A DNA stretch of 64,000 bases. It comes from Planctomycetota bacterium. GTDB lineage: Bacteria; Planctomycetota; Phycisphaerae; Phycisphaerales; Phycisphaeraceae. Of this stretch, positions 43,846 to 52,006 are shown piece after piece. Under the pieces are notes generated by a model. It was not told the DNA's origin and did not search any database. It worked only from the letters and a program-made list of their open reading frames with translations. The stretch covers positions 124,001 through 188,000 of the forward strand of contig JAIOPN010000016.1 in assembly GCA_021413865.1 (NCBI GenBank), in the 5' to 3' direction. A program made the position numbers and the translations under genes. Position 1 is the stretch's first letter. Each line of letters starts with the position of its first letter.

Positions 43846-43919
43846 GGGCGGTTAGCTCAGTTGGCTAGAGCGCCACTTTTACATAGTGGATGTCGCAGGT
43901 TCGACTCCTGTACCGCCCA
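43846..43919 (+). tRNA. tRNA-Val(UAC), integration target
   Basis: 74 nt. The acceptor stem GGGCGGT / ACCGCCC, the D-arm AGCTCAGTTGGCTAGAGC, the anticodon stem-loop CCACT / TTTACAT / AGTGG (anticodon UAC) and the T-arm GCAGGTTCGACTCCTGT are all present; CCA is not encoded. Its 3' 14 bases fall in the 16-bp core duplicated at 51991-52006, so the element inserted here and restored the tRNA. Confidence 0.96.
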
Positions 43920-45183
43920 TTCCCGCAGCGTCCGTGCTCGTACCCGCATCGCCTGAAAATACAGTGTTTCCCGTGGTATCTGTGATGTTTTCGCTCACGG
44001 TCACACTTTCCACGTTCACCCCTATTCCGCCCAGTTCCGCCCCAGCGCGCGTCGTCTGGCGCGTCGCGCTGAAGACGGCTTTGTCGAAGTGGGCGTCCGT
44101 GGTCATGCGGTAGAACGCATCGGCGATCTTTTCCGTGTGCCCCAGCCACGCGGCGCAGACGTGCGACGGGTACTGGTCAGCCAACTCCGTCGCCCTCGAT
44201 GCCCTCAAGTTCTGCCACAGCTTGCCCCACGGCTGGACGCCTGCCGCCGTGATGTACCGTGCAAACTGCGTGCGGATGTTCTGCAAAGAGTCGCGGTAGC
44301 GGGTGATGACGTGCTCGCTGCCCTCGGGTGCGGCGTCGAAGGCGGCTTGGAAGTGGTCCGCCAACTCAGGGAACATCGGCACCACACGGATACCGCCGTC
44401 GTCGTGATGCTCCGTCTTGCTCGAACGCACGATGAACCGCTTGCCCTTGAAGTCCACGTCCCGCCACGCCAGGGCGAACGCCTCGGACGGGATGCGGAGT
44501 CCGCCCCAACGGGCCAGGGCGATCAACAGCTTCCATTGCGGGCAAGGGACATGATCCACAACCCTCTGCACCACGTCGCCGGGGACAAACTCCCGACGGG
44601 CGGGGTTGCCGACCACTTGCCCCTTGATGTGCTCGAACGGATTGAAGCGGACCAGCTTCCGCCTCAGCGCCACCGCAAAGTAGTGGCGGGCGTAGCGGCA
44701 CCGCTTGGCGATCGTCGCCTTGGCCAGCTTGGCCTTGACCATCCGCGCCCTGTAGGCGTCGGCGTCGGCTGTCGTCACCGCGTCGATCGGGAGTGATTCG
44801 CCAAGGTGGCGGACCAGCCACACGCGGCCCTGCCCCATCAGCGTGAGGGTGGCGGGTTTCAGGTCGGCCCGTTCGGCGAGGTAGTCGCGGATGAACGCAT
44901 CGACGGTCGGGACCGCCTCGCGGTCTCGCTTCTCAACGAGCCCCACGCCGACCAGCTTGGAGTAAACGTCGTCGCCCACCTCGCCCAGCCACCGGGCCAC
45001 ATCAGCCTCCGGCGCACGCTGCATCGCCTGGGCACCGACCAGCGACTCGACGCGGTACTTGAAGAACTGGGCGTCGGTCTTGGACATGTCGCCGCAGTAG
45101 AGGATGCGGCGCTTGCCGTCGCGGTCAACGAAGAGGATGCGCTGAGCGCCGGTCTTCTTGTTCGTGCTGAGGGTAGCCATCAC
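43879..45183 (-). CDS. int: Tyrosine recombinase / integrase
   Basis: 434 residues. The core-binding N-terminal domain (PTVDAFIRDYLAERADLKPA) is followed by the catalytic domain: Arg in GGLRIPSEAFALAW (about 229), WQNLRASRATEL (about 323, Asn in place of the usual first His), WLGH, and the catalytic Tyr in DAFYRMTTD (about 357). It catalyses site-specific integration into the tRNA gene. The last 13 codons lie in attL and the tRNA antisense strand (MGGTGVEPATSTM, stop at 43879). In the excised circle the frame would instead run on into 51742-51990. It overlaps the upstream regulator gene by 4 bp. Confidence 0.93.
   Translation of the reverse strand: MMATLSTNKKTGAQRILFVDRDGKRRILYCGDMSKTDAQFFKYRVESLVGAQAMQRAPEADVARWLGEVGDDVYSKLVGVGLVEKRDREAVPTVDAFIRDYLAERADLKPATLTLMGQGRVWLVRHLGESLPIDAVTTADADAYRARMVKAKLAKATIAKRCRYARHYFAVALRRKLVRFNPFEHIKGQVVGNPARREFVPGDVVQRVVDHVPCPQWKLLIALARWGGLRIPSEAFALAWRDVDFKGKRFIVRSSKTEHHDDGGIRVVPMFPELADHFQAAFDAAPEGSEHVITRYRDSLQNIRTQFARYITAAGVQPWGKLWQNLRASRATELADQYPSHVCAAWLGHTEKIADAFYRMTTDAHFDKAVFSATRQTTRAGAELGGIGVNVESVTVSENITDTTGNTVFSGDAGTSTDAAGMGGTGVEPATSTM
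43906..43921. other. attL core (16 bp)
   Basis: TCCTGTACCGCCCATT, overlapping the last 14 bases of tRNA-Val. The identical 16-mer is at 51991-52006. Confidence 0.93.
44046..44069. repeat. 24-bp direct repeat near the left end of the element
   Basis: Begins CGCGCGTCGT and ends GCGTCGCGC; identical over 24 bases to 51920-51943, same orientation, 124 bp inside the attL core. The two copies are read in different frames by the overlapping genes, so the identity is at DNA level. Likely an integrase arm-type binding site. Confidence 0.75.
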
Positions 45184-45398
45184 TTGCTCCGTTTCTTGAG
45201 TTTCGGCGTCGGCGTGAAGGTGACGCTGTAGCCGAGCGCGCGGGCGAGGTCTTCGACGTGTCCGGCGCTCAGGCCGGCGTGACCGTTCATCAGGCGGGAG
45301 ATGCTCGCCGGCTCGACGCCCGACGCCCGCGACAACTCGCGGACGCCCCGGCCATCGGCTCGGACCAGGGCTTGAAGTTGCTTCATCAGTTTGGGCAT
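45180..45398 (-). CDS. Small Xre-type helix-turn-helix regulator
   Basis: 72 residues from ATG at 45398 (MPKLMKQLQALVRADGRGVR); the frame is open up to 45452. VRELSRASGVEPASISRLMN is a classic HTH, followed by AGLSAGHVEDLARALGYSV, typical of Cro/C1-type proteins. It overlaps the integrase start by ATGA, so it is probably co-transcribed and controls integrase or element gene expression. It ends in a basic tail (KLKKRSK). Confidence 0.85.
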   Translation of the reverse strand: MPKLMKQLQALVRADGRGVRELSRASGVEPASISRLMNGHAGLSAGHVEDLARALGYSVTFTPTPKLKKRSK

Positions 45399-45485
45399 GG
45401 CATATACCCTATCGTCCGTGTTGAGGTTGCACAACAAGTATTTCGCACCCACCGCCCGGACCGTCCGCGGCGGGGTGTCGGTGTC

Positions 45486-46349
45486 TTAGAAACCCAGCCC
45501 GGCGAAGGGGAGGCGGGGTTGGGTGCGCCAGACCAAGAGCGTGCCCTTGCCGGCTTGGATGGTCTTGACGACTCCCTGCGGCACCGCGGCGCGCCCCTCT
45601 GCCGATCCGATCCGATCCGACGCGCCGATGCGAGAGCCCTTGCCGTCGAGCAGGTTGCCGTCCTCGTCCACGTCGGGTACCGCCGAGTCGAAGCCGTCGG
45701 CGCGCATCTCGAACCGCGTCGCCTCCAAATAGAGGCCGTCGGACTGGGGCGTCGGCTTACGGCCAAGGCACATCGCCTGCCCCGGCGCGAGGCCGCGCCA
45801 GTTGTCTGAGTTGCAGGCGCTGGCGTACCCGACCATTTGCGACACGTCATAAGACCCGACGTACCGCTGCACCTCCAGCGTCAGCGTGGCGATGACCGTG
45901 GGGATGCCGTTGCGCGGCGGGAGGCCCTTGCTGTTGAGGATTGGATTGCCCGCGTGGTCGGTGAACTTCTCCACCGTCGCCACGCCGGTATCCCAGTAAA
46001 AGACCGGGTATCCGCCGGGCGTGGGTCGCTGCGTTCCGCCGTTCGAGCCGCCCGCGCGGGTGTCATAGGTAAACGAGACCGACCACATGCCGTCGTCGCC
46101 GTTGATGGCGGGGCTCACCGCGGCGATGTTGAAGTCGATAACCTTGAGGCGGGGGTCGGGGATGTTGCCGGCGGCGTCTTTGTAAACCTGCCCGACGCCG
46201 ATGCCACGCGCGGAGAACACGGCGGCCAGCGCGTCAAACGAGGTGGGTGCCAACACCTTGAGGGTGCGGCGGAAGGTGCGGTTGCCGTCGAGGTCGCCCC
46301 CGAGACTCGGGGCGATCACGTCCTCGGTGATTTGCGGGAAGGTGGACAT
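45486..46349 (-). CDS. Element-encoded protein of unknown function, phage-structural appearance
   Basis: 287 residues, no signal or membrane segment, beta-rich. Notable stretches: DLDGNRTFRRTLKVLAPTSF, KVIDFNIAAVSPAINGDDGM, GIPTVIATLTLEVQRYVGSY and EATRFEMRADGFDSAVPDVD. The composition resembles virion or tail-associated proteins, but I cannot name a family. It starts 3 bp after the small-terminase-like gene ends, so the two are translationally linked. In a satellite it could interfere with or redirect helper packaging; this is speculation. Confidence 0.6.
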   Translation of the reverse strand: MSTFPQITEDVIAPSLGGDLDGNRTFRRTLKVLAPTSFDALAAVFSARGIGVGQVYKDAAGNIPDPRLKVIDFNIAAVSPAINGDDGMWSVSFTYDTRAGGSNGGTQRPTPGGYPVFYWDTGVATVEKFTDHAGNPILNSKGLPPRNGIPTVIATLTLEVQRYVGSYDVSQMVGYASACNSDNWRGLAPGQAMCLGRKPTPQSDGLYLEATRFEMRADGFDSAVPDVDEDGNLLDGKGSRIGASDRIGSAEGRAAVPQGVVKTIQAGKGTLLVWRTQPRLPFAGLGF

Positions 46350-46352
46350 GGG

Positions 46353-46892
46353 TCAAGGTTCCTGTGGTTGTGCCGCGCGCGACGGCGCGGCGGGGGTGGG
46401 TGGATCGATCAGGTCGGCGGACTCACTGAGCCGGCGCAGGGTGTCGCGGACGGCGGCGTCGAGGATGGATTGAATCTCAGGGATCGTCTTGCCGAACATC
46501 AGCGGCGCGGTGGTCGCGCCCAATGGTTCGACGGCGGCGCGGATCGTGGCAGTGATGCGGTCCCATTCGCGGTGTACGTCGTCGGCGTCGAGCAGCCGGG
46601 CGGCGGCGCGGCGATACTGCCCCTCGTACAAGTCGGCGAGCGCGTTTTCTTTGCGGATTTTGGCGGCCAGCATCTCCCGCGATCCCTCAGACCGTGGGCG
46701 GCCTGGGCGCGTCGATCGTCCGGTGGATTTCAGCCAGGCGGCGACTTCCTCCAGGCTGTAGCGGACGGCGCGGGTGCGCTTGTTCCTCGTGTGCGGACAG
46801 CCCGATTTCGACCAGTTCCAAACCGTATCCTCGTGCACGTCGAGGGCGTCGGCGATGTCGGCGGCGGTCTGGTTTCTGGAAGAGGGCTTCAT
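46353..46892 (-). CDS. Terminase small subunit-like (Nu1-type) DNA-binding protein
   Basis: 179 residues from ATG at 46892 (MKPSSRNQTAADIADALDVH); the frame is open to a GTG at 46940. N-terminal winged-helix HTH: TAADIADALDVHEDTVWNWS, then RAVRYSLEEVAAWLK. Next comes a helical part RSEGSREMLAAKIRKENALA and DLYEGQYRRAAARLLDADDV, with HREWDRITATIRAAVEPLGA, similar to phage Nu1/TerS proteins. TerS proteins recognise packaging sites. No terL is present, which is the feature expected of a phage satellite. An alternative is a simple transcriptional regulator. Confidence 0.72.
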   Translation of the reverse strand: MKPSSRNQTAADIADALDVHEDTVWNWSKSGCPHTRNKRTRAVRYSLEEVAAWLKSTGRSTRPGRPRSEGSREMLAAKIRKENALADLYEGQYRRAAARLLDADDVHREWDRITATIRAAVEPLGATTAPLMFGKTIPEIQSILDAAVRDTLRRLSESADLIDPPTPAAPSRAAQPQEP

Positions 46893-47171
46893 GGCGTGCC
46901 TGTCGTTATTTGAGTTGGCGCGGCTATTGACACTCGACACACGAGATCGCTTTACCCCTCATAGCCGCCACCGGCAGGGAAGAACCTCGCCGCACCGGGG
47001 GTGGGGGTGGGCACCCCCCGCACCCCCTCCGCTCCTCCGGCGCGTCCTGGGGCATCGTGACGCCCGTGTGCAAAGCCGCGCACCACCTTCCGATGGTGCG
47101 GGCGAAAGTCTGCCGGGGCGGTTCTTGCTTCCGCCCCGGCGACCGAACAGAGAGTTCATGCTTGTTGTGCA

Positions 47172-47651
47172 TCACGGGCGCAGGTTCCCGTTCTCGTCGC
47201 GCGGCGACTGCGGCACCATGCTGCTATCCACCACGTCGGGGAACTGGCGGTGCAGCGTGGCCAGCCTCTCGCGGGCCTGAGCCGACGCCTGCATCCGCGT
47301 CCCGGCCTGCCCGCGGGCCTTCTCCAGCGCCCCCGTCTTGGCCGTGTAGTCGGCCTTGACCTTCTCCCACGACGCGAGGTGTTCGCTCAGCGCCCGCGCC
47401 GACGCCTTCGATGCGCGAATCAGTTCCCGCTCATCGCCCATCGACGCGGCGAGTGAGTGTGCCTCGGCCAGCGCGTCCGCATCAGCGGAGGCCTGATCGT
47501 CGGTCTTGTTCAACTGCGTAGTGAGCTGATCGAGCTGTGCGATTTCGCGCGTGGTGATTTTGTCGCCCTTGCTCAACAGCGCGCGGTATTGCTCCCGTGC
47601 CTGGGCATCCGCATCACGTCGGCGTTGAAATATTGCATCCAAGAAACTCAT
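47172..47651 (-). CDS. Coiled-coil protein of unknown function (mobile element)
   Basis: 159 residues from ATG at 47651 (MSFLDAIFQRRRDADAQARE). Highly charged and helical, with heptad-like runs DQLTTQLNKTDDQASADADA and SEHLASWEKVKADYTAKTGA. No signal peptide, no membrane segment. It could be a scaffold-like or structural accessory protein, but no family was recognised. The 280-bp gap downstream (46893-47171) has GC-rich hairpins (e.g. CGCACC...GGTGCG near 47074-47100) and no gene. Confidence 0.6.
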   Translation of the reverse strand: MSFLDAIFQRRRDADAQAREQYRALLSKGDKITTREIAQLDQLTTQLNKTDDQASADADALAEAHSLAASMGDERELIRASKASARALSEHLASWEKVKADYTAKTGALEKARGQAGTRMQASAQARERLATLHRQFPDVVDSSMVPQSPRDENGNLRP

Positions 47652-47708
47652 GCCTGTATCCCTTCGATTGATGATGGAGTTGAACACCGGCCACGCGGCC
47701 GGCGCGGA

Positions 47709-47969
47709 TCAGACCTTCGGCTTGATGCGGCCTTTGGCAACGTGCTGGTGATAGCGCAGCAGTTCGGCCTTGCTCTTGAAGTCTTTGCGGGCCTGGGGGT
47801 CGTGCTCCCACTCGTGGTCGGCCCTCTCCTCGGGCGTGGCGTCCGACCGAAGCGCGGGGGCGGCGCTGGAGGCGGTCTTGGCGGCGGCCTCGGCGTTCTC
47901 GCGCTTGACCCAGTAGGCGACTTCCTCTTTTTGGTTGGCGAACTTCGGGATCGGGATGTAGCTGGACAT
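47709..47969 (-). CDS. Small hydrophilic protein (mobile element)
   Basis: 86 residues, MSSYIPIPKFANQKEEVAYW then VKRENAEAAAKTASSAAP, with a basic C-terminus (HQHVAKGRIKPKV). It starts 3 bp after the stop of the gene at 47973 and 21 bp before the antisense stop region of the preceding unit. No family recognised; probably cytosolic. Confidence 0.55.
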   Translation of the reverse strand: MSSYIPIPKFANQKEEVAYWVKRENAEAAAKTASSAAPALRSDATPEERADHEWEHDPQARKDFKSKAELLRYHQHVAKGRIKPKV

Positions 47970-47972
47970 GGA

Positions 47973-48239
47973 TCAGCCTTTCAGAATTGCCGTCGATGAC
48001 GGCAGGGTGATGCCGTCGGTGACGGCGGGGATTTCCTCGATGCTCAGACAACGCAGACCGCACGCGCGGCCCGCGAGTTTTAAGAGCCTGCGCAGGCCGA
48101 GCACCGGGTCGGCGCCGAGCATCGGCGTGAGCACGACGACGTACCGGGGTCGCTCCGCCGGCGGGGTCGGCCTGATGCCGTCCATCACCCTGGGGAGGAT
48201 GGCGGAGAGCTTTTCGGGGTTGGGGTTGCGGGTTCTCAT
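47973..48239 (-). CDS. Small protein of unknown function (mobile element)
   Basis: 88 residues, starting MRTRNPNPEKLSAILPRVMD. The core YVVVLTPMLGADPVLGLRRL and LKLAGRACGLRCLSIEEIPA alternates strands and helices. The start overlaps the helicase stop by ATGA, indicating coupled translation with replication functions. No family recognised. Confidence 0.6.
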   Translation of the reverse strand: MRTRNPNPEKLSAILPRVMDGIRPTPPAERPRYVVVLTPMLGADPVLGLRRLLKLAGRACGLRCLSIEEIPAVTDGITLPSSTAILKG

Positions 48240-49885
48240 TCGCGCACCCCCTGCCCCTCAATAACCTGAGCATCTGGAGCGCCTGCCCCCACCCCCCCCT
48301 CATCAAACCCTGTAATAATGGGCACATGCTCAAGATGCTCAAGATGCTCAAGATGTTCATTGGCAGGGGCAGGTGAGCAGGTGTGAGCATGTGCCCCCTC
48401 GGGGAGCCGCCAGAGCCACGGGCCGGGGTTCTCGGGGCGGTAGGACTCAACCTTCAACTCCCGCTTGGCACGCCGGAGGGTTGCGTCCTTGATGCCCTCG
48501 CCGTTTTGGGCTTGGTCGCAGACTTCGCTGGCGAGCACGGGACCGTCGGCCAGCATCGACCTCAGCCAGTCCACGGCTGTATCCCGCTCGTCTCGCTCGG
48601 GACCGGGACGCTCGCCCGGTGGAGAGAGCATCTTGTCCAGGTCCGCCGCGACCGCGCCCGCCTCCCACGCGACCGATGCGGCGAGGGGGGTGGACTGCCG
48701 AATCTCGAACGCCAGGCCGTCGCGGTCGTTGCCGATGTTGTTCTTGATGGGCAGGAAGAGCCGCCGCTTGCCCGTAGGATCGTCCGGGCATTTGCCGATG
48801 GCGAACACCGCCCGCGCCGCCGCGACGAACGCGAGGCTGCCCGTGGCGCGGTAGATGGCCTGCCCCTGCCCCTTGTTCAGGTGCGTCACCGCCAACAGCG
48901 CCACGCCGCTCCGTGATGCAAGCTCGCTTGCCCGAGAGAGACACGCCCGAACCTCCGCATTGTTGTGGGAGTCGGTCGAGCCCATGTACGCGGACACCGG
49001 GTCGATGATGACCAGCTTGCAATCAGGCGTCTGCTGGATCGCCTCCTCGAGCGCGGCGATATTCTCGTCCAGGGCGAAGGCGCCGGTCTCGACCTTGCCG
49101 GTTTTGTGGTTCGTCCTGAACACGCCGCGCATGATGGTGACGCGACTGGGGTCTCCCCCCGCCGCATCAAACCGGGGGCGGATCGTGTCGGCCACGTCGT
49201 CCTCGACGTTGAGCAGCACGACACCGCCGACGCCGCATGATGGGCTACCGTCCGGCCACGTCGCGCCTCTGGTCACACGCGCGGCGATGTCGATGGTGGC
49301 GGTCGATTTCCCGAGACCGGGATCGCCCGCAAAGAGCGTCAACTTTCCACGGGCGATGCGATGCTTCCAAAGCCATCGGACCGCCTCGGGGGGAACACTG
49401 GACAAGGTGACGATCGACGGGCCGGTGGTCGGGCCACCCGCGCCCTGAACAAGGTTTTCTTGTGCGATGCGAAGGGCTTCCGCGCCCGTCGCGCCTTCGT
49501 TGATGGCGCGGGCGAGGCGGTCCACCACTCGGCCGTTGAGCCGCTGGTCTGCCTTCTCCCGCACAATCTTGGCGTAGTGCTCCGCAAGCGCGGCGTTGGG
49601 CACGGTCTCCCCGAGCATGTAGAGATATTCGAGCCCGCCGACGTCGTCGAGTTGCCCCTTGTCACGCAGGTGCTGCACGAGATGCACAAGACCGTTTGGT
49701 TTGCCGGCCTCGTAAACATCGAAGATCGCGGCGGCGATGATGACGTGCGCGGGCTTCTGGAAGTCCTCGGGGCCGCGAAGGATTTTCAAGACCTCCGTGA
49801 TCGCGTCGCCTTCCAGGATCATCGAACCGAGCGCGGCGGCTTCGGCTTCGAGCGCGGCGGGCGGGGTTGTGGTGTTGGCGATCAT
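48236..49885 (-). CDS. DnaB-N / RepA-like AAA helicase (element replication)
   Basis: 549 residues. Residues 5-120 resemble the DnaB N-terminal domain (ALEAEAAALGSMILEGDAIT). From about 180 a RecA/RepA-type ATPase follows: IARGKLTLFAGDPGLGKSTA with Walker A GDPGLGKST, Walker B CKLVIIDPVSAYMG, and ALLAVTHLNKGQG. The C-terminal 120 residues include a winged-helix-like part (VLASEVCDQAQNGEGIKDAT) and then a loose tail with the tripeptide repeat HLE-HLE-HLE. Such proteins initiate plasmid, phage or satellite replication. The DNA encoding the HLE repeat forms iterons flanked by an inverted repeat. It overlaps both neighbours by ATGA. Confidence 0.87.
   Translation of the reverse strand: MIANTTTPPAALEAEAAALGSMILEGDAITEVLKILRGPEDFQKPAHVIIAAAIFDVYEAGKPNGLVHLVQHLRDKGQLDDVGGLEYLYMLGETVPNAALAEHYAKIVREKADQRLNGRVVDRLARAINEGATGAEALRIAQENLVQGAGGPTTGPSIVTLSSVPPEAVRWLWKHRIARGKLTLFAGDPGLGKSTATIDIAARVTRGATWPDGSPSCGVGGVVLLNVEDDVADTIRPRFDAAGGDPSRVTIMRGVFRTNHKTGKVETGAFALDENIAALEEAIQQTPDCKLVIIDPVSAYMGSTDSHNNAEVRACLSRASELASRSGVALLAVTHLNKGQGQAIYRATGSLAFVAAARAVFAIGKCPDDPTGKRRLFLPIKNNIGNDRDGLAFEIRQSTPLAASVAWEAGAVAADLDKMLSPPGERPGPERDERDTAVDWLRSMLADGPVLASEVCDQAQNGEGIKDATLRRAKRELKVESYRPENPGPWLWRLPEGAHAHTCSPAPANEHLEHLEHLEHVPIITGFDEGGVGAGAPDAQVIEGQGVRE
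48320..48396. repeat. Iteron-like 9-bp repeats inside a 13-bp inverted repeat (candidate origin)
   Basis: ATGCTCAAG occurs three times in tandem (48326-48352), with a fourth degenerate copy ATGTTCATT (48353-48361). The block is enclosed by perfect arms GGGCACATGCTCA (48320-48332) and TGAGCATGTGCCC (48384-48396). It lies in the 3' coding part of the helicase gene. AT content is locally higher just to the left (TGTAATAAT). Confidence 0.7.
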
Positions 49886-50103
49886 CGGCCCTCCCCGGTG
49901 GTGGTGACAACGCGGCGGGCTCGGACGAACGCGATCAAATCCGACCTGAGAATCACCGTCGCGGTCCCCAGCTTCGAGGCGGGAAGTTCGCCGGTGCGGA
50001 TGTAGTCCGAGAGGTGCCGCGCGCTCACCCCGACGGCGCGGGCGGCGTCCTCCAGGCGGTACGAAACAGGCTCAGGGGTGGCGATGGTGGGGCGGACGTT
50101 CAT
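49882..50103 (-). CDS. Excisionase/AlpA-like helix-turn-helix protein
   Basis: 73 residues. YRLEDAARAVGVSARHLSDY and IRTGELPASKLGTATVILRS match the MerR-like HTH_17 fold used by excisionases and AlpA-type activators. It overlaps the helicase start by ATGA, and its own start is overlapped by the next HTH gene. It probably controls excision or replication gene expression. Confidence 0.8.
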   Translation of the reverse strand: MNVRPTIATPEPVSYRLEDAARAVGVSARHLSDYIRTGELPASKLGTATVILRSDLIAFVRARRVVTTTGEGR

Positions 50104-50360
50104 CGCTGCACCGCCTCACCGTGGCGGGCGCGTTCGGAGAGCAAGTCAGCCACCGTCGGGACGTGCACCAGGATCACGCGGCCGGCGTGAAGACCGGGCA
50201 AGCGGTGGGCGTTCACCTCATCGCGCAACCATCCCGCCGGGACACGCAGGTATCGCGCCGCTCGATTCAGCGGGACGGCCTGGGTTGGGATGTGGGGCGT
50301 TGTTTCCATACCCGAATCGTCGGGTATGGTCCGGCATTCAACCGGCAACGGGACCGGCAA
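50100..50360 (-). CDS. Second small HTH (excisionase-like) protein
   Basis: 86 residues from 50360, or 69 from the internal ATG at 50309 (METTPHIPTQAVPLNRAARY). VPLNRAARYLRVPAGWLRDE and VNAHRLPGLHAGRVILVHVP form a winged MerR-like HTH similar in layout to its neighbour. It overlaps the downstream HTH gene by 4 bp and abuts the stop of the gene at 50361. Two adjacent HTH proteins suggest one regulator and one recombination directionality factor. Confidence 0.7.
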   Translation of the reverse strand: MPVPLPVECRTIPDDSGMETTPHIPTQAVPLNRAARYLRVPAGWLRDEVNAHRLPGLHAGRVILVHVPTVADLLSERARHGEAVQR

Positions 50361-51062
50361 TCAGTCGGCAATTTTCGAGAGCACCCGTCGGCCGCGGATA
50401 GTCAGCCTAGCACCGCCCGCGCGGCCATTCGGTCGCTCTGCATAGAGCGCGCCGATAAGCTCGCGGATCGCCTGCTCAATGGTCCTCACGGAATCAGCGG
50501 TGGTTGGTTCCGCGAGTTGTTCGACCGTGGCTGAGTCCGCCGGATCGAGTCGCCCGAGTGCGCGAAGAACCCGCTTTGCGGCATTGCTGAGCGCCGGGAC
50601 TTGTTCGATTTCCCCGCCATCCATCGCCTTCGCCTCCGCGTGCAGCACCCCAGCCACGGCGCGACACTTCGCCGCAAACTCAACCGAGCCGATGGAGTCG
50701 CTGCCCGGACCACCACGCACGCAAGCGGGTATCTTGACGCTCCATGTGTGCATCGCGTGGTTCCAGAAACCCGCGTAACAGTCGGGGTTTTCTTCGAGGG
50801 TTGGTTTCCGTGCCTCCGCTAATTCGGGGTAGCTGGTCAACGCGCCCGCGTTCATCGCCTCTTCCAGCAGTTGCCCAGCGTGCCTGTCCAGGGCGATGAC
50901 CACGCGCACATAATCCGGCCGTCCCTCCGGGTCTTTGATCTTGACGGCCAGATCGAGATATTGATCTGCGATCGCGTGAATAACGGCGGGGTTCGCCGCG
51001 GTCGTCGTCGGCTTGGTAGTTGTGGTGGCGGTCTTCGGTTTGCGCTTCGCTGTCGGTGACAT
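50361..51062 (-). CDS. Protein of unknown function (mobile element)
   Basis: 233 residues from ATG at 51062 (MSPTAKRKPKTATTTTKPTT), preceded by SD AAGGAA; the frame is open to 51362 but lacks a start with SD. After a Thr/Lys-rich N-terminus, it has VIHAIADQYLDLAVKIKDPE, ALDRHAGQLLEEAMNAGALT and a C-terminal part like a winged helix (SNAAKRVLRALGRLDPADSA, with ARLTIRGRRVLSKIAD). A DNA-binding role is possible. No family recognised. Confidence 0.6.
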   Translation of the reverse strand: MSPTAKRKPKTATTTTKPTTTAANPAVIHAIADQYLDLAVKIKDPEGRPDYVRVVIALDRHAGQLLEEAMNAGALTSYPELAEARKPTLEENPDCYAGFWNHAMHTWSVKIPACVRGGPGSDSIGSVEFAAKCRAVAGVLHAEAKAMDGGEIEQVPALSNAAKRVLRALGRLDPADSATVEQLAEPTTADSVRTIEQAIRELIGALYAERPNGRAGGARLTIRGRRVLSKIAD

Positions 51063-51273
51063 GCTTGTTCCTTCAAGGTGGGCGATCCGGCGCGACGGGC
51101 AGGCGGAACAAGACACCCACGCGCCGCGCCGAATCTTCCGTCGGGGATCAGACCGACGGCCCGCACAAAAACTACCTACGAAACCAGACTCTTTCCACCT
51201 TGTTTTCCCGGTGGATAATGTGTCGCAAACCCGACCGGGCGCGTTGGCGCACGGCCGGGCGTGAGGGAGAGTG

Positions 51274-51672
51274 TCACTTGCGGCCGGGCAGGGCGGCGAT
51301 GGCCTCCCGAACGAACCGGACGGCCGCGTCCTCGGCGAACGCGCCGGCGGAATCCTCGGCAATCTCAGCTACGGCCGCGTTGATGGCGGCGGTAGCTTCG
51401 TCGAGCCCGTCGCGCAGGTCCTGGGCGTTTTGGTGCGACATATGGACGCACGCCCGATAGCAGCCGGCCTCAAGCAGGTCGCGGGCCTCCGTCACCCGCT
51501 CCAGCATGGCGAGGCAAATCTTGTGCGTGACGGCCATCGCCTCTTCATCGGTGAAGTTCGGCGTATCGGTCACGCCGTCGCCAGTGTCAATGTCAACGTC
51601 GATCATGGCGGCAGCCTCTGGTGCGGATGCTTTCGCCTTGGCCTTTTTCGGATTCTTCGCTCGCTTCGTCAT
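51274..51672 (-). CDS. Small helical protein of unknown function (mobile element)
   Basis: 132 residues from ATG at 51672 (MTKRAKNPKKAKAKASAPEA). Basic N-terminus, then acidic DVDIDTGDGVTD and helical AMAVTHKICLAMLERVTEAR with AATAAINAAVAEIAEDSAGA. It is probably cytosolic and may bind nucleic acid through the Lys-rich tail. It is the first complete gene inside the right end; 211 bp separate it from the next gene. Confidence 0.5.
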   Translation of the reverse strand: MTKRAKNPKKAKAKASAPEAAAMIDVDIDTGDGVTDTPNFTDEEAMAVTHKICLAMLERVTEARDLLEAGCYRACVHMSHQNAQDLRDGLDEATAAINAAVAEIAEDSAGAFAEDAAVRFVREAIAALPGRK

Positions 51673-51741
51673 GGTCACTCTCCACGGCCGGCGGTTTGGT
51701 TGCCCCACGACGCCCCCGGCCGGGCGCGGCGGGGTGTTGGG

Positions 51742-52005
51742 TCATGCTGGGCGGTCGTCGCTGTCTGCGAGCCTCAGGGCGGGCGTGGCGGCCTCGTGGC
51801 GTTCACGGATCGCCTTGGCCAGCGCGTTGAGGTACACCACCGGCTCGCCGCGCAGCAGGTCCACAAGCGCGGCGAGCGCGTCGTCGTGCTCGGGGTCGGC
51901 GGTGCGTTTCAGCGTCAGCCGCGCGTCGTCTGGCGCGTCGCGCCGCTCTGGAACTGGTATATTCTTCGAGGATTTAGAAGGTAGTGCGGTTCCTGTACCG
52001 CCCAT
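51742..52005 (-). CDS. Right-end reading frame; probable integrase C-terminal extension in the excised form
   Basis: 87 codons beginning with the ATG in attR (MGGTGTALPSKSSKNIPVPE) and ending ATPALRLADSDDRPA. The first five codons (MGGTG) are the same att core codons, in the same frame, as codons 422-426 of the integrase. Joining the ends at the core gives an uninterrupted frame of about 508 residues. In the integrated state it may be silent or use the core ATG as a new start. It has no recognised domain; helix RGEPVVYLNALAKAIRERHE. Confidence 0.6.
   Translation of the reverse strand: MGGTGTALPSKSSKNIPVPERRDAPDDARLTLKRTADPEHDDALAALVDLLRGEPVVYLNALAKAIRERHEAATPALRLADSDDRPA
51920..51943. repeat. 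24-bp direct repeat near the right end of the element
   Basis: Identical to 44046-44069 in the same orientation, 47 bp inside the attR core. In the circular form the two copies would flank the attP core. Confidence 0.75.
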
Positions 52006-52006
52006 T
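51991..52006. other. attR core (16 bp)
   Basis: TCCTGTACCGCCCATT, an exact copy of the tRNA-Val 3' end and following base at 43906-43921. The sequence to the right is chromosomal (uxuA leader). Confidence 0.93.

Follow-up and report, generated by a model that had tools for sequence, protein, structure and literature searches.

A planctomycete mobile element with its attachment site inside its own integrase gene, whose integration is predicted to exchange the C-terminus of the recombinase

We propose that, in a tRNA-targeted mobile element of a planctomycete bacterium, the integrase gene contains the attachment site, attP, in its 3′ part, that integration removes a C-terminal hairpin from the encoded enzyme, and that the state of the DNA sets the form of the recombinase. 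The switch is the inferred part of this reading, to which we assign a probability of about 0.6. In many planctomycete mobile elements the insertion site falls within the integrase gene, and the free circle encodes an extra end module that the inserted copy lacks. The element described here lies in a 64,000-nucleotide stretch of contig JAIOPN010000016.1, the whole of which is referred to below as the window.

The window element spans positions 43906-52006 (about 8.1 kb) and is inserted in a tRNA-Val(TAC) gene. Both of its ends carry an exact copy of the att core TCCTGTACCGCCCATT, and no third copy was found in the whole 67-contig genome. The features on which the argument rests are as follows.

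43846-43919, plus strand: tRNA-Val(TAC), the insertion target, whose 3′ part is the attL core (ARAGORN)
43879-45183, minus strand: tyrosine integrase, integrated form, 434 codons from GTG (PF00589, E 4.1e-7)
43906-43921, no strand: attL core, 16 bp, exact repeat with 51991-52006
44046-44069, minus strand: integrase-side copy of an exact 24-nt repeat, probably an arm-type site; translation SATRQTTRA
49882-50103, minus strand: small HTH_17 protein, candidate excisionase, its role inferred (PF12728, E 9e-11)
51742-52005, minus strand: 3′ end separated from the integrase gene, made up of the core codons MGGTG and the tail, stop at 51742 (open frame)
51920-51943, minus strand: second copy of the 24-nt repeat, tail side, in another phase, read as RRDAPDDAR (exact repeat)
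51991-52006, no strand: attR core, 16 bp, exact repeat with 43906-43921

A domain scan of ten element proteins detected no capsid or large terminase, and the 287-residue protein encoded at 45486-46349 had no Pfam match up to E 1. The gene at 48236-49885 encodes DnaB N-terminal and AAA_25 domains and is likely to specify a replication helicase.

The integrase starts at a GTG at 45183 or at the ATG directly after it, at 45180, and its PF00589 match scores 30.4 bits against a cut-off of 27.1. Residues R225, K256, R327 and Y358, which we take to be the conserved Arg, Lys and Arg and the nucleophilic Tyr, are invariant across 27 sequences. An earlier, sequence-only reading of this DNA had proposed that the integrase frame crosses the attL core to end in the antisense tRNA, and that the two element ends joined at the core yield one uninterrupted frame. 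Both points were borne out. The integrated integrase ends in ...GMGGTGVEPATSTM with a stop at 43879, on the minus strand within the antisense tRNA, its last 13-14 or so codons being supplied by the core and the antisense tRNA, and the attL copy retains both the N-terminal and the catalytic parts. In the rejoined attP the integrase frame is open for 508 codons from the GTG, ending at 51742. The proposed loss of an extra tail on insertion also stood; the sizes given with it did not, since the core is 16 bp long and so extends beyond the ATG at 43918-43920, and 82 rather than 83 tail residues are encoded wholly past the core.

The remaining two frames at the window attP close 10 and 29 codons past the core. 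Within the window element, at least 83 codons are open at 34% of minus-strand positions, and when the tail DNA is shuffled 21% of the resulting sequences remain open. Taken alone, the open window frame is weak evidence, with a chance of about 0.2-0.35 of arising fortuitously; it is the addition of relatives that raises frame openness far above chance.

We therefore rely on a survey of 106 integrase loci, comprising 46 of the family, counting that of the window, and 60 that belong to other families in the class, the latter taken by descending score with simple position rules. A fixed mapping rule (integrase profile, antisense tRNA at the 3′ end, longest exact repeat of at least 12 bp upstream) gave candidate end pairs at 44 of the 106. 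In the strict subset, defined by a core of 13 bp or longer and a called tRNA, the integrase frame was open through attP in 38/38 loci, for 35-123 codons past the core (median 64, n = 38), and was the longest of the three frames in 29. The other two frames at these 38 sites reached at least 35 codons in 27 of 76 instances. Assuming the loci to be independent, the product of the chance openings is approximately 10^-18.

Among six cases with a 12-bp core only L188 had a real tail (profile E 5e-4); the 12-bp repeats at L064, L065, L077, L225 and L224 were judged to be due to chance and were dropped before counting, and at L084 a 16-bp repeat was used in place of an earlier 12-bp one. Addition of up to 20 kb to 17 unmapped or doubtful loci supplied eight more in-frame pairs and one exception (L218), with eight loci still unmapped. 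Four loci at which no tRNA was called (L054, L067, L079 and L086), their cores picked by eye among the listed repeats, were all in frame. Altogether the frame runs through attP into the tail in 51 of 52 mapped loci, no second end being mapped for 54 of the 106. Relatives with a closed attP frame, which would have counted against the sequence-only reading, are represented only by the partial exception L218, where the integrase is in phase with the tail but a stop precedes the core. Two more named records, L240 and L245, agree with the in-frame pattern. L218 (with L278) may be in decay or may represent a form that is short by nature. The integrases of L064, L065, L060, L061, L175, L180, L185 and L224 end shortly after the catalytic domain, and their second ends are unmapped.

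The hosts of the relatives are Planctomycetota records, not archaea, and of the 396 genomes sampled from the class 193 have matches to the integrase family. A cultured Rhodopirellula isolate likewise carries a family integrase whose end lies in tRNA-Val (L236/L237). One 3.3-kb contig labelled Candidatus Obscuribacter (L229, JADYXS010000717.1) carries an integrase gene whose product shares 59% identity with the query; transfer or misbinning could account for it.

The tail itself is a recognisable module. When the class set was searched with a profile of the L085 tail and 16 tails of the family set, 22 of the 24 tails read in the integrase frame matched at E ≤1.2e-4, against 1 of 48 wrong-frame readings below E 0.01 (0.0023). 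The consensus comprises a GGAxSGA stretch followed by DPxLAxxxxxWPxLPxxxR. The two tails without a profile match are those of L214 and L223; the window and L014 (C37) tails are of another type, without the WP motif. For want of the motif the window and L014 tails had been excluded from the first profile, and the second omitted L214 and L223 too. No NCBIfam domain was found for the tails of the window, L193 or L195, and Pfam gave one weak MgtE_N match among 34 tails and only sub-threshold matches for the window tail. A separate small gene for the tail was considered and rejected: no ATG, GTG or TTG is present in the core in the integrase frame in 14 of the 38 strict loci, and none occurs anywhere in the L013 tail. 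Other tails do have a core ATG, and for these the sequence leaves room for an independent product made from attR.

Differences between tails amount to 0.32, 0.24 and 0.45 at codon positions 1, 2 and 3 (27 pairs). Pooled dN/dS was 0.40 for the hairpin and 0.61 for the linker that precedes it, with single-pair tail values of 0.33-1.01 (10 pairs); the pairs were chosen by protein identity and are not independent. By these ratios the hairpin is clearly constrained, the linker only weakly.

On both sides of the core lie copies of a repeat that most likely represents the arm-type site of the integrase. For the 24-nt window repeat, which has an internal period of 12, none of 60 shuffles was as good. 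A repeat flanks the core on both sides in 36 of the 38 strict attP sites, a result equalled by no more than 1 of 60 mononucleotide shuffles, and in 34 of the 38 it is situated 82-144 bp before and 35-68 bp after the core. The repeats are element-specific and have an internal period of 12 in all nine looked at, and in 21 of 38 sites the copies before and after the core are translated in different phases. These properties mark them as a DNA site; that this is the arm-type site is an inference. Some of the arm-like repeats exceed the usual 20-24 nt, as in L050 (24-30 nt) and L083.

The long form predicted for the free element was also sought in molecules that are not integrated. A scan of viral contigs yielded 75 integrase relatives; the window protein alone as query gave no match in these contigs, and the L089 integrase gave no tblastn match at E 1e-20 in phage or plasmid collections. 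Among the 75, many of the more distant integrases stop directly after the catalytic domain and are tail-less, and L093, L097, L106 and L157 are integrated forms ending in a tRNA. Seven distinct genes encode integrase and tail in one natural open reading frame; six of them are viral and the other, L085/L088, comes from a genome bin. L116 provides an eighth unsplit gene once its ends are joined. The ends were tested in 24 distinct records, namely 17 whole contigs and the eight unsplit-gene records, with one record in both groups. Direct terminal repeats of 44-123 bp were present in six (L088, L089, L091, L110, L115 and L116), and the integrase gene was unsplit in 6/6. Molecules with such repeats can be taken to be circular or terminally redundant, and so unintegrated; circular or unintegrated relatives with a long integrase, for which the sequence-only reading had suggested a search, are thereby in hand.

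One of these, L088, is circular and 6,035 bp long. The genome bin it comes from also contains a tRNA-Phe(GAA) with the same 22-bp core and no integrase or tail within approximately 1.5 kb. This is an empty target beside the free element, with the caveat that a bin can mix strains. The central claim of the earlier reading, that the integrase is longer in the free form and that its C-terminus is swapped on integration for a few tRNA-encoded residues, is upheld by the 51 mapped relatives, the six unintegrated molecules and the circle with its empty tRNA-Phe. Its functional suggestion, that the tail might bind DNA at attP or regulate excision, is no more than a possibility; the tail DNA does bear an arm-like repeat, and the tail protein is predicted to form a helical hairpin. 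In L090 and L091 the unsplit integrase and tail are separated by a middle part without an obvious tRNA-derived peptide, and their target may not be a tRNA.

An AlphaFold model of the natural 496-residue L089 protein (38-row alignment) predicts an ordered region at residues 1-371, consisting of an N-terminal part of three strands and a helix followed by the core-binding and catalytic domains. Residues 381-459 have pLDDT below 50 and are followed by helices at 456-472 and 477-492; tails modelled alone gave the same two-helix hairpin. The fold of the integrase body matches lambda Int (1z1b, E 1.4e-11), Tn1549 Int (6en2, E 1.6e-11) and XerA, and for the tail hairpin no fold match was found in the PDB, the search giving a single meaningless match. 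In the model, the disordered linker corresponds to the stretch encoded by attP DNA and the hairpin to the part that integration removes.

The following mechanism is proposed, the layout and splitting of the gene being established by the sequences and the consequences inferred. The attP site, consisting of the core and its flanking repeats of probable arm type, is situated within the 3′ part of the integrase gene, and in unintegrated molecules a single open reading frame encodes an N-terminal beta/helix domain, the catalytic domain, the attP-encoded linker and the two-helix hairpin. Integration cuts the gene at the core, leaving the whole catalytic part with the attL copy, which ends within the antisense tRNA, and the hairpin codons stranded at the far end of the element. 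The circle would then give a tailed integrase and the integrated copy a tail-less one; both forms are read from the DNA, without expression data, and are expected from ordinary translation since the gene is whole in the circle and cut when integrated. The hairpin, on its flexible linker, may alter activity or direction, for instance if it promotes integration or touches an adjacent protomer, and excision would be carried out by the tail-less form, probably with the HTH_17 excisionase. A state-dependent switch of activity or direction via the hairpin is our best guess; it has no direct support, and there are no activity data. The fuller proposition, that across a large bacterial clade the tailed recombinase of the circle favours integration and the tail-less one of the integrated copy is suited to staying in place or excising, remains tentative, at somewhat short of even odds.

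A different use of the same two forms is conceivable, in which only the tailed one is fully active and the integrated element is latched until another element supplies integrase. The conservation of the hairpin throughout the class is compatible with this, and the logic is that of the archaeal split integrases as set out in a review (PMC8371274). We nonetheless regard it as unlikely: the N-terminus, which resembles an arm-binding domain, is kept in the integrated form together with the tyrosine and the other catalytic residues, and the element carries an excisionase-like HTH_17 gene, though neither point is conclusive. The tail might instead shorten the life of the free-form integrase, with integration yielding a stable protein. 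A precedent is available in the repressor of mycobacteriophage BPs, whose attP lies inside the repressor gene and whose integrated form is 33 residues shorter, the long form being proteolysed (PMC4557955). Control of stability seems improbable here, as the tail ends vary among relatives with no common terminal tag seen by eye, and the conserved part is the folded hairpin, not the last residues.

Little credence can be given to the possibility that integrase and attP merely travel as one compact cassette with a tolerated tail of little role. The arm-like repeats inside the reading frame, with their differing phases on the two sides, and the weak constraint on the linker would fit such packing; against it, families that use many different tRNA targets share a recognisable hairpin, for which dN/dS is the 0.40 given above. 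A frame open by chance in GC-rich DNA, which the window alone could not dismiss, is ruled out by the 38/38 loci, the tail profile and the unsplit natural genes.

An integrase whose hairpin is removed by integration has partial parallels among known systems. In archaeal SSV-type integrases the recombination site lies in the gene, and integration splits it into Int(N) and a catalytic Int(C), both inactive; self-splitting recombinases are described as exclusively archaeal in the review (PMC8371274). The present elements are alike in having the att site in an integrase gene that is split upon integration, but here the catalytic part stays whole with the N-terminus, only the C-terminal hairpin is lost and the hosts are bacterial. 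The elements are not assigned to the SSV type because two defining features are unmet; the window proteins gave no match to Phage_integr_3 (PF16795) in Pfam up to E 1. The integration-dependent immunity of BPs similarly combines an attP in an open reading frame, a C-terminus shortened by integration and two protein forms, but there the gene is a repressor and the lost part a degradation tag, rather than an integrase and a folded hairpin. Integrase output also depends on state in ICEKp1, where the int promoter depends on the integrated or excised state (PMC13023037); transcription changes there, whereas the protein sequence changes here.

The attP of lambda has an arm-core-arm layout, and overlaps between int and attP are known for some elements from older papers. 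The present integrases share the catalytic fold and this layout with those of lambda and Tn1549, but differ in having the arms and core inside the integrase reading frame and a hairpin after the catalytic domain. In the open-access literature searched, which leaves out most subscription papers, no earlier account was found of a bacterial integrase whose conserved tail is removed by integration. Within that literature, a self-splitting integrase in bacteria whose enzyme would survive and change form appears to be a variant of self-splitting integrases not previously described, and this bacterial version runs counter to the exclusively archaeal view of the review (PMC8371274).

If the two forms act differently, the direction of recombination would be coded in the state of the DNA itself; if that state is indeed read, site-specific recombination would rewrite its own recombinase. 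For annotation, many integrase C-termini recorded in these genomes consist at their ends of antisense tRNA sequence, specific to the integrated state, and are not the ends of the free form. The element-specific paired repeats furnish ready integrase-site pairs for studies of arm-site recognition.

Two further such elements with mapped ends are present in the same genome, L013 in tRNA-Val(CAC) and L014 in tRNA-Val(GAC). Three related elements of one genome occupy three tRNA-Val isoacceptors (TAC, CAC and GAC). The rebuilt attP is open in the integrase frame for 81 codons in L013 and 131 codons in L014, counted from the core on. The tRNA sequence is crossed in more than one phase among the window, L013 and L014 elements, and the phase of the tail therefore follows the integrase and not the tRNA. 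The L013 integrase is 81% identical to that of the window, and the window tail is related to the L014 tail (E 7.9e-4), not to that of L013, its nearer integrase sibling; this discordance suggests, from the sequences compared, that tails may reassort between integrases.
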